Shown here piece after piece: positions 936-8,546 of a stretch of 8,783 nucleotides of DNA. The position numbers and the translations under genes were made by a program. The notes under the pieces are model-generated. The model had not been told where the DNA came from. It ran no database searches and was given only the letters and a program-made list of their open reading frames with translations. This DNA comes from Deltaproteobacteria bacterium (GTDB lineage: Bacteria; Desulfobacterota; DSM-4660; Desulfatiglandales; B25-G16), in assembly GCA_019308645.1 (NCBI GenBank), contig JAFDHR010000080.1, forward strand, positions 1 through 8,783. Direction: 5' to 3'. Positions within the stretch are counted from its first letter, which is position 1, and the number at the start of each line of letters is the position of its first letter.

Positions 936-2315
936 TTATGAGTTTAGCTCTTTCTTTGCCGTGTGTAATGCCTTTTTAACTTCTTTAGGCCCAGTTCCTC
1001 CCTTAATATTTCTACGCTCGATACATGACGCTGGATCAAGCCATCCGTAGACATCATTCTCGATAAGGCTGCTAAAATGTTTCATTTCACGTAAGTCAAG
1101 TTGATGCAGTTCCTTATTTTTCTTTTGAGCTAAAAGGATCATGTCACCTACAATGTGATGAGCTTTTCTGAATGTCATGCCCTTGGTCACAAGATAATCG
1201 GCCAGGTCTGTTGCAACAAGATATCCACTTTCAGTTGCCTTCTTGAGATTTTCTTTTTTGAAATCTATCTCTTTGAGGAGCAGCGAGAAAATGCCCAGCG
1301 ATTTTTCTACGGTGTCAACAGTATCGAAAAGGGGCTCTTTATCTTCCTGCATATCCTTATTGTACGTAAGAGGAAGGCCTTTCATGGTTGTGAGTAGTGA
1401 TATCAGGTGACCATATACCCTCCCCGTCTTTCCCCTGATCAGCTCAGGGATATCGGGATTTTTTTTCTGGGGCATGATGCTGCTACCAGTAGCAAAGGAA
1501 TCGGAGATTTCTATAAAGTCAAATTCCTGAGTTGACCAAATAATCAGTTCTTCACACAGACGGGAAAGATGCATCATCAAAAGGGCAGATATAAAGATAA
1601 ACTCCAGTATAAAGTCTCTGTCCGATACTGCATCCATGCTATTTGCCGTTATCCTTTGCAGATTCAGCTCTTTGGACAGAAATTCCCTGTCTATGGCAAA
1701 GGTAGTTCCAGTTAGTGCAGCGCTCCCCAGAGGAAGGACATTTGTTCTCTTCAAGGCCTCCTCATATCTCTGCGTATCCCTCTTGGTCATCTCGTAGTAG
1801 GCCAGTAAATGGTGTGCTAAGAGCACGGGTTGCGCCCGTTGAAGATGGGTATAACCAGGCATGACCAGATCCTGGTTCTTTTCAGCTATCTCGATCAAGG
1901 ATAATTGAAATTCCCTTATCAGTTGTAGAATGTTTCCTGTTGAATTTTTTATGAATAACCTTGTATCAAGGGCTATCTGGTCATTTCTGCTTCTTCCGGT
2001 ATGGATCATTTCACCCAGCGTGCCGGTTTTGTGTATCAGGGCCTTTTCAATAACGGTATGAATATCTTCCGATGACTCATCAAAGATAAATGTACCTTTT
2101 TCTATCTCGCTATAGATCTCTTGCAAGGCTGAGAGAATTTTTTTGGCTGCATTCTCACTGATTATACCCTGTTTTCCCAGCATTTTGCAGTATGCTATGC
2201 TACCCTGGATATCCTCTCTCCACAGCCTTTTATCAAACTGGAGAGAGGAATTAAAGGTATTCACCATGTCATGTGTGTCTGATGTGAAACGGCCTCCCCA
2301 GAGCTTTTCACTCAT
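936..2315 (-). CDS. argH: Argininosuccinate lyase
   Basis: This enzyme catalyses the last step of arginine synthesis, cleaving argininosuccinate to arginine and fumarate as a cytoplasmic homotetramer of the fumarase/aspartase superfamily. Its 459 residues are normal length. Visible motifs are KLWGGRF at the N-terminus, HTGRSRND (105-112), GYTHLQRAQP (154-163, with the His of the conserved TH pair at 157), and the superfamily signature GSSIMPQKKNPD (277-288), whose mobile loop carries the catalytic serine. The ATG at 2315 has AAGGA about 9 nt upstream, located inside the small ORF 2317-2457 that ends one base before argH. Translation is therefore probably coupled to that ORF. No lesion is seen, so the gene looks functional although its normal partner argG is missing next door. 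Confidence 0.98.
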   Translation of the reverse strand: MSEKLWGGRFTSDTHDMVNTFNSSLQFDKRLWREDIQGSIAYCKMLGKQGIISENAAKKILSALQEIYSEIEKGTFIFDESSEDIHTVIEKALIHKTGTLGEMIHTGRSRNDQIALDTRLFIKNSTGNILQLIREFQLSLIEIAEKNQDLVMPGYTHLQRAQPVLLAHHLLAYYEMTKRDTQRYEEALKRTNVLPLGSAALTGTTFAIDREFLSKELNLQRITANSMDAVSDRDFILEFIFISALLMMHLSRLCEELIIWSTQEFDFIEISDSFATGSSIMPQKKNPDIPELIRGKTGRVYGHLISLLTTMKGLPLTYNKDMQEDKEPLFDTVDTVEKSLGIFSLLLKEIDFKKENLKKATESGYLVATDLADYLVTKGMTFRKAHHIVGDMILLAQKKNKELHQLDLREMKHFSSLIENDVYGWLDPASCIERRNIKGGTGPKEVKKALHTAKKELNS

Positions 2316-2316
2316 T

Positions 2317-2457
2317 TCAATTTCCTTGTCTCATGAGATTTGCGATTTTCGATTCATAACCATTACGCATAATTAATCCATCGGCATATTTCTGGTTATA
2401 TACTGTGTCTTCTTTAAATGTGATATATTCATCAGGGTCTAAAAAATACTTTTTCAT
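2317..2457 (-). pseudogene. 46-codon ORF, probable argF start / argG tail deletion scar
   Basis: The ATG overlaps the argD stop as ATGA, and the TGA stop lies one base before the argH ATG. The product opens MKKYFLDPDEYITFKED and continues TVYNQKYADGLIMRN, ending KIANLMRQGN. From residue 13 on it resembles the C-terminal tail of argininosuccinate synthase, whose usual form is F..D.VYNQKDAEGFI.L followed by a basic helix. The opening MKK.FL resembles many ornithine carbamoyltransferase N-termini and sits exactly where argF would start after argD. I infer an in-frame deletion from the first codons of argF to the last ~40 codons of argG, about 2 kb. It carries no catalytic residues. It may persist because it supplies the argH ribosome site and translational coupling. 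Alternatives are an assembly collapse or an unrelated small protein. Confidence 0.7.
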
Positions 2458-3647
2458 ATCCTTATTTTCCTAAATATCTCATCCAGACATGTGATTAATA
2501 GATCAATCTCATCTTTTGTTATGATTAAAGGAGGCACAAACCTGAGAATTTTTGCCTGGATACAGTTTATTAAAAACCCTTTTTTCATGCAGGCATTGAC
2601 AATATCAGCTCCATCTCTATCAAGCAATACTCCAAGTATAAGGCCTAAACCCCTTACATCTTTTATAATACTATATTTTCGTTGAAGATAAGTGAGTTGA
2701 TTTTTAAAATAATCCCCCATCGTTCTGGCATTTTCGATCCAGCCATCATTCAAAAGGCTTTTGACAACAGCCAGGGCACCTGCAGTAATCAGGGGTGTTC
2801 CTCCGAACGTTGTCGCATGACTCCCTGGGCCAAAGGCATCAGCTAATTCCTCTGTTGCCAGCATAGCGCCGATAGGAAGCCCGTTACCCAAGGCCTTGGC
2901 AAGGGTCATGATATCAGGTATTATTCCAAAATGTTGGTAGGAAAAGAGCCTTCCTGTTCTTCCCATACCGGCCTGCACCTCGTCTAATATTAAGAGAAGC
3001 TCGTGTTTTTTACAGATTTCTTTGACACCTTTTAGGTAATCACCGTCAGGAACAACAACACCTCCTTCACCCTGTATTGGTTCTAACATTACAGCACATA
3101 CAGATCTATCTATAGCAGCATTCAGGTTATCCAGATCGTTAAAGGGTACATATCTAAAATCTTCAAGGAAGGGCTCAAAGCCTATTCTGATCTTTTCTTG
3201 ACCTGTAGCTGAAAGTGTGGCCATTGTCCGGCCATGGAATGAATTTTCCATGGTTATGATAGCATATCTCTCAGGCCCAAATTTTTCTTTTGAATAACGC
3301 CTGGCTAATTTTATGGCTGCCTCGTTAGCCTCGGCCCCACTGTTACAGAAAAACACCCTGTCTGCAAAAGAGTTCTCTACCAATATCTGGGCAAGTTCTG
3401 TCTGAGGCTGTGTATAAAATAGGTTAGAAACATGTACAAGTTTTGTAGACTGTTCATACAGGGCTTTGCTCACTATGGGTGAGCTATGTCCAAGAGCACA
3501 GACAGCTATTCCACCAACAAAATCGATGTATTCATTACCTTTCTCATCCCATACCCGGCATCCATCACCTTTAACCAGGGTGATGGGAAAGCGCTTGTAT
3601 GTGTTGAACATGAATGTATCTGCTCTGTCTATGGTGTTAGAAATCAT
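2454..3647 (-). CDS. argD: Acetylornithine aminotransferase
   Basis: This is a class III PLP-dependent aminotransferase that converts N-acetylglutamate semialdehyde to N-acetylornithine with glutamate as donor. From the ATG at 3647 it has 397 residues, the normal length. Numbered from that start, motifs include NTYKRFPITLVKGDG near the N-terminus, NSGAEANE (102-109, PLP phosphate site), FHGRT (137-141), DEVQ (222-225), the PLP lysine in TLAKALGNGLP (K251), and a complete C-terminus. The reading frame is open to a GTG at 3716, but those 23 extra codons lie inside a dispersed repeat (3661-3735) and look nothing like ArgD, so I reject them. Neither start has a visible Shine-Dalgarno. The stop overlaps the next small ORF. 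A succinylornithine transaminase activity is possible for such enzymes, but the arg context supports ArgD. Confidence 0.95.
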   Translation of the reverse strand: MISNTIDRADTFMFNTYKRFPITLVKGDGCRVWDEKGNEYIDFVGGIAVCALGHSSPIVSKALYEQSTKLVHVSNLFYTQPQTELAQILVENSFADRVFFCNSGAEANEAAIKLARRYSKEKFGPERYAIITMENSFHGRTMATLSATGQEKIRIGFEPFLEDFRYVPFNDLDNLNAAIDRSVCAVMLEPIQGEGGVVVPDGDYLKGVKEICKKHELLLILDEVQAGMGRTGRLFSYQHFGIIPDIMTLAKALGNGLPIGAMLATEELADAFGPGSHATTFGGTPLITAGALAVVKSLLNDGWIENARTMGDYFKNQLTYLQRKYSIIKDVRGLGLILGVLLDRDGADIVNACMKKGFLINCIQAKILRFVPPLIITKDEIDLLITCLDEIFRKIRI

Positions 3648-3660
3648 GATTATATATAGT

Positions 3661-3735
3661 TTAAAGTGAGCTAAAATTATGGATAGGATCCATAATGATT
3701 CATTAACCTTAGGCACTTTTAAAATTTAGGCACTT
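3661..3735 (-). repeat. Dispersed repeat copy A in argB-argD spacer
   Basis: Read on the minus strand it has two AAGTGCCTAA units, then GGTTAATGAATC, a perfect 9-bp hairpin (ATTATGGAT / ATCCATAAT, 3-nt loop, 3676-3696), and closes with TTTTAGCTCACTTTAA. The same layout recurs at 8642-8740. The two ends are imperfect inverted repeats of each other. It fills nearly the whole spacer, beginning one base after the argB stop, and supplies the spurious N-terminal extension of argD. Confidence 0.8.
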
Positions 3736-3736
3736 A

Positions 3737-4636
3737 TTAATCAAGAACTATCTCTGTTCCCACTCCTTCATCTGTAAATATCTCTAAAAGTAGGGCATGT
3801 TCCTTCCTGCCATCAATAATATGAACCTTTTTTACTCCACCTTTAAGTGCATCTAGGCAACATTGGAGCTTTGGTATCATTCCTTCCTTGATAACCCCAC
3901 GAGCTATCATTTTTTTTGCATCACCTGCTGTGAGACTGCTAATAAGGTTGCCATCTCCGTCAAGAACACCCTCGACATCAGTTAAGAGGATGAGCTTTCT
4001 CGCTTCAAGAGATGAGGCAATATGACCAGCCACAAGATCGGCGTTGATGTTGTATGTCTCATTATCTTTGCCCACTCCAACAGGGGCAATCACAGGAATA
4101 AACTGGTTAGTTATGAGGCTTTTTATTATTCGGTTATTAACAGAGACAACCTCACCCACTAGACCAATATCTATTATCTCTGGAGGGTTATCAGGCTTAT
4201 CCATTTTCTCATCAGAATTTGGTAGAAACCGAAGTTTTTTGGCAGTAATAAGATGGCCATCTTTACCTGAGAGGCCAACTGCCTGTCCACCATGTTGATT
4301 TATTGTGGCAACAATTTCTTTATTTACCTTCCCAGCAAGAACCATCTCAACGACATCCATCGTTTTTTCATCAGTAACCCTGTGGCCATTGACGAAATTC
4401 GATTGTATGGACATTTCACTCAAGATTTTTCCTATTTGAGGGCCACCACCGTGTACTATTACTGGATTAAGGCTGACGTATTTCATCAGGATGATATCTA
4501 AGGCAAAATCCTTTTTTAACCTGGAATCAACCATAGCATGGCCGCCATATTTAATGACAATTGTCTGGCTATTAAATTTTTTTATATATGGCAGGGCCTC
4601 AATCAGGATCCTTGCCCTGTCTAAACCAGTATTCAT
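3737..4636 (-). CDS. argB: Acetylglutamate kinase
   Basis: This enzyme phosphorylates N-acetylglutamate with ATP, the second step of arginine synthesis, and belongs to the amino acid kinase family. Its 299 residues are normal. Visible motifs are KYGGHAM (29-35), HGGGPQI (62-68), GLSGKDG (121-127), NINADLVA (197-204), LLTDVEGV (217-224) and GMIPK (252-256). It has an N-terminal helix before the kinase fold ([15 protein letters not shown]) and the ending [20 protein letters not shown] followed by GVGTEI. Both are features of hexameric, arginine-inhibited NAGKs, so feedback inhibition by arginine is likely; that is inferred from family knowledge. The ATG at 4636 has a good ribosome site (GAGGTGAGG, about 5 nt away). 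A 163-bp spacer separates it from hslU upstream. Confidence 0.97.
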
Positions 4637-8054: not shown

Positions 8055-8086
8055 AGGGCATGGGTGTCTTTTTTTTGCTTATGCCC
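8055..8086 (+). repeat. Left terminal inverted repeat
   Basis: It begins AGGGCATGGGTGTC, continues with an 8-T run, then GCTTATGCCC. The outer GGGCAT and inner ATGCCC can pair into a stem. Confidence 0.8.
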
Positions 8087-8096
8087 CTGGCCCAGA

Positions 8097-8116
8097 CCCG
8101 CCTGTCGGATGGCGGG
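8097..8116. repeat. GC-rich hairpin inside the element
   Basis: CCCGCC (8097-8102) pairs with GGCGGG (8111-8116) over an 8-nt loop, TGTCGGAT. A further small hairpin, ACTGC / GCAGT, follows at 8131-8144. Confidence 0.6.
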
Positions 8117-8200
8117 CAGGCCTGGCTAGCACTGCACCAGCAGTTATACTTTGTCTGAAAACTAATAAAACGATCATATAATACTCCAGATAATTCGCGC

Positions 8201-8235
8201 CTCCCGATCCCGTCCCGGTCTCGGGACGGGGAGGG
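8201..8235. repeat. Strong GC-rich hairpin inside the element
   Basis: CCCGTCCCG (8209-8217) and CGGGACGGG (8222-8230) form a perfect 9-bp stem with a 4-nt loop. Flanking CTCCC (8201-8205) can extend the stem with GGGAG after a bulge. No T-tract follows, so a terminator role is unsupported. Confidence 0.7.
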
Positions 8236-8271
8236 CAGGCCTTAAATATAACTTAAGATTAGTTGTCATTT

Positions 8272-8287
8272 TCCCGACATGTCGGGA
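8272..8287. repeat. Perfect 16-bp palindrome
   Basis: TCCCGACATGTCGGGA is fully self-complementary with no loop. It could be a dimeric protein-binding site, or part of the repeat structure of the element. Confidence 0.7.
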
Positions 8288-8336
8288 GATAATATAGACA
8301 GATCATATAACTATAAGGTCAAGTTGCCCTTTGGCC

Positions 8337-8380
8337 TCGAGTCGTTCGATCTGGAGGCCTTTCGGCCCCGAGCGACTCGA
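8337..8380. repeat. Inverted repeat TCGAGTCG / CGACTCGA
   Basis: Exact 8-bp arms at 8337-8344 and 8373-8380, extended by TCG / CGA after one mismatch. The loop contains its own small hairpin GGCC TTTC GGCC. Confidence 0.6.
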
Positions 8381-8383
8381 CAT

Positions 8384-8464
8384 GAGCCGTTCGGCCCTGA
8401 GCTCACAGCCGAAGGGCTCGCCAACATGTCTCAAGGCCGAGGGGCTCTCGACAGGCTCAGGGCT
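8384..8464. repeat. REP-like pair of inverted units
   Basis: GAGCCGTTCGGC (8384-8395) pairs with GCCGAAGGGCTC (8408-8419) at 11 of 12 positions. CCCTGAGC (8395-8402) is complemented by GCTCAGGG (8455-8462). The wording (GTTCG.CCCTGAGC...CGAAGGGCTCG, then TCGACAGGCTCAGGG) resembles a class of intergenic REP/BIME-like repeats widespread in bacteria, in head-to-head arrangement. Confidence 0.6.
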
Positions 8465-8516
8465 GAGAGGCTATTACCCAATTTTGAAACGACATGGCAA
8501 GGCGCCCTATTAAGAA

Positions 8517-8546
8517 GGGCATAACAAAAAAAGACACCCATGCCCT
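8517..8546 (-). repeat. Right terminal inverted repeat
   Basis: GGGCATAAC, a 7-A run, then GACACCCATGCCCT: the reverse complement of the left end at 8055-8086 with only a run-length difference and one extra base. Confidence 0.8.

Follow-up and report, generated by a model that had tools for sequence, protein, structure and literature searches.

A 46-codon ORF between argD and argH as the very probable scar of an argF-argG deletion

Results

Organization of the arg locus

The window (the whole stretch of DNA analysed, 8,783 nucleotides) carries argB, argD and argH on its minus strand, and neither argF nor argG is present between argD and argH (Table 1). Their place is taken by an ORF of 46 codons, whose predicted product is the 46-residue sequence MKKYFLDPDEYITFKEDTVYNQKYADGLIMRNGYESKIANLMRQGN. 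The first-pass annotation had described this ORF as overlapping the argD stop and ending one base before argH, and the coordinates agree: the ORF start shares the argD stop in a 4-nt ATGA overlap (2454-2457), and a single base (2316) separates its end from the start of argH. The resulting spacings, -4 on the argD side and +1 on the argH side, are the same in two related genomes, G165 and G414. Relatives suggest that the real start of argD lies ~23 codons after the annotated GTG.

Table 1. Features of the arg locus in the window.
Feature	Position	Strand	Basis
argH, argininosuccinate lyase	936..2315	-	TIGR00838, 638.6 bits
46-codon ORF, very probably a fusion of the argF start to the argG end	2317..2457	-	Reading frame, NCBIfam, database homologues, DNA alignments
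Probable argG-derived part: last 38-39 codons including the stop	2317..2434	-	DNA alignment
ORF end with likely argH Shine-Dalgarno site (AAGGA), probably inherited from argG	2317..2331	-	By eye; junction alignment
Probable argF-derived part: ~8 codons from the start codon on, with one extra nucleotide	2433..2457	-	DNA alignment
argD, acetylornithine aminotransferase	2454..3716	-	TIGR00707, 517.7 bits
argB, acetylglutamate kinase	3737..4636	-	TIGR00761, 270.1 bits

The arg genes are flanked by a YbaB-family gene, recR and a recombinase of the phage-integrase family (XerC-like), as identified with Pfam. Two further genes of the window are, from their translations, taken to be hslU and hslV. Elsewhere in the window, a 492-bp stretch (8055-8546) has a perfect inverted repeat of 21 bp at its two ends (8055-8075 and 8526-8546) and contains additional imperfect inverted repeats; it could be a small, MITE-like mobile element.

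Relationship of the ORF to argG and argF

The body of the ORF had been proposed to resemble the ArgG C-terminus and its opening the start of ArgF, and both resemblances were upheld. The sole NCBIfam match of the ORF is the ArgG model NF001770 (E 0.012, far below the curated cut-off set for whole ArgG), with residues 9-43 aligned to profile positions 364-398 of 401. A Pfam search of the ORF yielded no ArgG match and one match only, at chance level. For an ORF variant from the protein database (P0012, 76% identical), the best match was the ArgG C-terminus in six of six whole genomes, at E values of 3.3e-6 to 5.4e-4. Another variant (P0002) was searched through 395 genomes from the phylum and had a match at 1e-4 in 238. 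Among the matches listed, most lie in frames of ~400 aa, and G165 has the only free-standing whole copy of the ORF.

In DNA alignments, nucleotides 24-137 of the window ORF matched the end of argG of the related genome G426 at 89 of 114 positions, and nucleotides 1-25 matched nucleotides 1-24 of its argF at 21 of 25, each alignment being better than all of 500 shuffles. The corresponding part of the ORF matched the argG end of G413 at 90 of 117 positions. The G414 ORF gave 21/25 against the argF start and 88/114 against the argG end. For the ORF of G165 the values were 19/23, a match equalled by 1 of 500 shuffles, and 80/104, respectively. The short 5' part was also compared with argG sequence immediately upstream of the tail. 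In nine comparisons the argF start scored 12-15 and the argG sequence 3.5-6.5 (13-15 and 4.5-6.5 for the window alone), and only 0 or 1 of 5000 shuffles was as good as the argF match. For the window part, none of 5000 was as good with any of the three argF starts.

The two halves meet at nucleotides 24/25 of the ORF in both the window and G414, the border being placed to within 1-2 bases, and in both the argF-derived part contains one extra nucleotide. A single in-frame deletion had been suggested as the origin of this layout. The overall geometry stands, since it is that of the intact operons of G413, G426 and G427, but the extra nucleotide indicates that the junction is not that of a bare two-ended deletion. 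In the coordinates of G413 the lost stretch measures 2142 bp.

The argD-argH junction in related genomes

The first-pass annotation had also suggested comparing sister genomes at this junction. Close relatives were found in a family of 18 genomes that includes G165 and G414, whose ArgH proteins are 93% and 96% identical to that of the window; another family, that of G001, was rejected as kin, its best ArgH being only 64% identical. The argD-argH junction was read in nine genomes of the G165 family and its argG-argH side in two more (G416 and G319), whose contigs cover that side only.

G165 and G414 carry the same ORF at the same place, in the order argD-ORF-argH. In G413, G426 and G427 the order is argD-argF-argG-argH, with an intact pair; an ATGA overlap links the argD stop to the argF start, and a single base separates argG from argH, exactly as it separates the ORF from argH in the window. 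The argF-argG gap in these intact relatives is 70, 165 and 505 nt, which implies that argH was coupled to argG and not to argD.

Both genes are also missing between argD and argH in G422 and G423, where decayed pieces remain. G423 retains remnants of the argF 5' region (31/42 identities), the argG start (20/24) and the argG end (84/95), and G422 has kept a piece of argF (24/31) as well as the end of argG (27/33); for these pieces 0-2 of 500 shuffles were as good. An argG start was not found by remnant alignment in the G422 junction. In two further genomes, G417 (locus L189) and G420 (L190), argF is missing between argD and argG and argG is retained; argF pieces there are weaker, with 5 and 13 of 500 shuffles as good, respectively. 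G417 has no ornithine carbamoyltransferase (OTC) above the TIGR00658 cut-off, all of its matches lying on one 2.53-Mb contig. Behind argD these four genomes have gaps of 493 nt (G423), 249 nt (G422), 151 nt (G417) and 164 nt (G420), so the family can do without coupling from argD.

In a tree of five neighbouring proteins, intact G413 is the sister of the group comprising the window, G165 and G414 (support 100/98); other inner nodes are weak. An earlier tree that included G319, for which argH alone was available, was weakly supported, and G319 was left out of the five-protein tree. A single loss shared with G422 and G423 was rejected (AU p 0.004, taking the tree of the five neighbouring genes as the organism tree), and the pair was thus lost separately in the G422/G423 lineage.

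Taken together, the ORF is almost certainly the scar of an argF-argG deletion. The ancestral operon would have been argB-argD-argF-argG-argH, and an in-frame deletion of ~2.1 kb, with its limits at about codon 8 of argF and 38-39 codons short of the argG end, would have taken out the spacer between the two genes along with the greater part of each. It would have spared the argF start inside the argD stop and also the end of argG, where the likely ribosome-binding site of argH is situated. A collapsed or chimeric assembly of the window, for which no support was found, is improbable in the extreme, since the same junction recurs in diverged form in the G165 and G414 assemblies and homologous 46-aa proteins derive from other public contigs.

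Database relatives and rejected candidates

The protein database contains 15 homologues of the predicted ORF product, 72-93% identical and every one 46 aa long; they were compared at the protein level, and some are named "hypothetical protein". A search of the order, in which 29 of 85 genomes had a match at 1e-7, detected ORF copies in G414 and G165 and a 37-aa fragment in G423. Several other short matches were rejected as scars. The fragment-like match of G045 belongs to a full-length argG (L194) that is interrupted by a single in-frame TGA, 45 codons from its end; this reflects either a sequencing error or a recent pseudogene. Short frames in G394, G347 (contig C30), G173, G072 and G143 lie, by their coordinates, at or near contig ends.

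ArgG and OTC of other types

Full-length argF and argG genes of other types are located elsewhere in the genomes of G165 and G414. The single ArgG found in each of these genomes is full length (421 aa) and has its own tail, and this bears on a further explanation of the ORF, namely that its product is a detached C-terminal piece which completes a truncated ArgG in trans. The homology of the ORF to the ArgG tail would suit such a role, but with a complete ArgG in both genomes it is very improbable.

The ArgG proteins of G165, G414, G412, G422 and G423 constitute a clade with 100/100 support, whose branch has a length of 1.01. The operon ArgGs are far removed from it and group with sequences from Desulfobacteraceae and Desulfobulbaceae. 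Within the 18 genomes of the family, ArgG was of the operon type in nine and of the other type in five; one genome (G421) has a partial, unplaced ArgG, and three (G418, G419 and G424) gave weak matches only. No genome of the 18 showed both types. Several of these genomes are small or fragmented, and the absence of ArgG is therefore uncertain.

OTC was detected above the curated cut-off in 10 of the 18 genomes, including four of the five with the other-type ArgG. The OTC of G165 and G414 is of a 333-aa type (NF003286; 561 and 563 bits), and that of intact G427 is of the NF001986 type. In G414 the OTC gene is followed by a carbamate kinase gene, which by eye is also found beside OTC in G422. The best OTC match in G423 is partial (C1:304144-304494, positions 1-117 of TIGR00658), and the gene may be broken. 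In G423 (L185) and G412 (L180) the other-type argG is clustered with genes resembling argR, a divergent argH, carA and carB; the argH of G412 was tested and the remaining genes were assigned by eye. The argH-like part of G423 appears to be fused to carA, and the wider argH match in G412 has one TGA.

The other-type ArgG and OTC presumably serve arginine synthesis in these relatives. With full-length copies of both elsewhere, as seen in two related genomes, the operon argF and argG would be dispensable. The composite reading, in which the ORF is the scar of argF and argG, the pair was replaced by genes of other types and the peptide is non-functional, is highly probable, the reason for the persistence of the frame being left aside.

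Evolution and persistence of the reading frame

Selection on the encoded peptide was analysed with a branch codon model covering the 38 argG-derived codons in nine genomes. Branch lengths were scaled from argH, the tree was fixed by hand after the five-protein tree, and G319, G422 and G423 were left out; ORF DNA came from three genomes only (the window, G165 and G414). Omega was 0.11 on intact argG tails and 0.30 on the stem. On the ORF branches it was 1.08, which is not different from 1 (p 0.80), and a single omega for all branches was rejected (2dL 41.4, p 1e-9). Purifying selection on the protein sequence was thus not detected by this model in the ORF DNA of the three genomes. Neutrality along the whole stem fitted worse (lnL -534.8 versus -527.2). 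When the stem is treated as a mixture of both regimes, the deletion falls in approximately its last fifth, a rough figure.

Such neutral amino-acid evolution would be expected if the frame of the scar were open merely because the deletion is recent, without any selection, an explanation that concerns persistence alone. The decay of the remnants in G422 and G423 fits it as well, as does the chance of 0.13 that the start would be kept and no stop would arise in the three genomes with DNA. When assumed indel rates are included, however, the joint chance for these genomes falls to 0.06-0.004, and the open frame is weak evidence of selection. Moreover, the 18 known variants, which are separated by ~72 replacements on a minimum spanning tree, show no stop and no change of length; the chance of no stops alone is 0.004-0.019, a figure to be read with the fact that a protein database holds open frames only. 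Recency by itself remains somewhat short of an even prospect.

Persistence could alternatively reflect the passage of ribosomes. Those finishing argD would restart on the ORF and, having reached its stop a single base ahead of argH, restart once more; argH would in this way be coupled to argD through a peptide that is itself inert. Compared with the intact relatives, this link between argH and argD would be an innovation. In excerpts of a study of six gene pairs in two species, hardly any termination-reinitiation was left once gaps reached ~20 nt, and coupling was found to require overlaps or very short gaps (PMC10666635); by that limit, argH would lose its coupling to argD if the 138 nt between them went untranslated. 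A conflicting result, in which spacings of -4 to +25 were without effect, is cited in a passage of a review (PMC12548453). Extracts from work on Escherichia coli deletions indicate that a remnant of 34 residues was insufficient for most genes and that for most of them the effect was relieved by remnants of 41 or 60 residues (PMC8547470).

In an alignment of twelve junctions (intact, with the 46-codon ORF, or decayed), the ORF end with the likely argH ribosome-binding site was among the better-kept parts; G422 is shifted there by one base, and an ungapped comparison misses it. The argH start region folds no better than shuffled sequences, either in the window, G414, G165 and G413 (z 0.89 to 1.16) or in G427 (z -0.50). 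A hidden ribosome-binding site, one of the classical grounds for coupling, is therefore not supported, and the weak folding in the window suggests that argH may initiate alone.

The precedents for spacing and remnant length, together with the chances calculated for an open frame, lead us to favour selection for the frame as a carrier of ribosomes from argD to argH over recency alone. The evidence for such selection is suggestive and unproven, and its probability comes close to even. The stricter form of the proposal, in which selection holds the frame open at a constant length for this handover while the encoded peptide is unconstrained, is tentative and to be doubted sooner than accepted.

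A different possibility is that the 46-residue peptide has grown from the scar into a functional small protein, for example one that binds ArgH or ArgD. All 18 variants are 46 aa long and 17 of the 46 sites are invariant, and pairwise NG86 omega values of the ORF are below 1 in two of the three genome pairs (0.61 and 0.66), which is what a functional product might show. The third pair, however, gave 1.30, and the codon model gave no departure from neutrality on the ORF branches; argB, argD, argH and ybaB have pairwise values of 0.08-0.23. In addition, replacements among the variants were no more conservative than random (mean BLOSUM62 -0.5, versus -0.35 to -0.19), and the part conserved best, the end at sites 38-45, coincides partly with the likely ribosome-binding site of argH. 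A functional product is accordingly unlikely. Judged from its neutral evolution at the sequence level, the peptide is probably functionless.

Discussion

The ORF between argD and argH offers a clear and testable case of a "hypothetical" small ORF that is probably no protein gene in the usual sense. Interpreted as the scar of argF and argG, it is debris that records a change of pathway: the native pair would have been lost at least twice in this family, with some members using another ArgG and OTC. If the handover of ribosomes is true, many conserved "hypothetical" small ORFs in operons could likewise be bridges for ribosomes left by in-frame deletions, and their signature would be an open frame with an omega near 1 that matches lost genes at their start and at their end. 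Among the matches listed in a literature search, no report of an argF-argG scar was found in titles or the beginnings of abstracts.

In its design the scar would be a natural counterpart of laboratory knockouts, in which genes are deleted and the first start codon and last codons are kept. The knockout scar of the Keio collection of E. coli (34 residues), as outlined in extracts of PMC2691949 and PMC8547470, likewise joins the start codon of the deleted gene in frame to the last codons of that gene, and it retains the ribosome-binding site of the next gene, an arrangement meant to allow coupling. In contrast to that designed scar, which holds cassette sequence, the present ORF is natural, spans two genes, has 46 codons and occurs in the window and two further genomes.

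The loss of a native gene with a distant homologue present elsewhere in the genome is shared with the remnants of xenologous gene displacement. G422 and G423 exhibit the decayed kind of such remnants, whereas the present remnant stems from the loss of two adjacent genes and is an open frame that drifts neutrally. As for the replacement enzymes, the catabolic OTC of Staphylococcus aureus serves arginine synthesis, according to an excerpt of PMC9239276, and the OTC outside the operon may similarly supply citrulline here, although its direction of use in these bacteria is deduced. Finally, gene pairs coupled by termination and reinitiation, as described in portions of PMC6728339 and PMC10666635, resemble the present arrangement in the 4-nt overlap at one end and the near-zero spacing at the other; unlike the genes of those pairs, the middle reading frame here appears to serve only as a passage.
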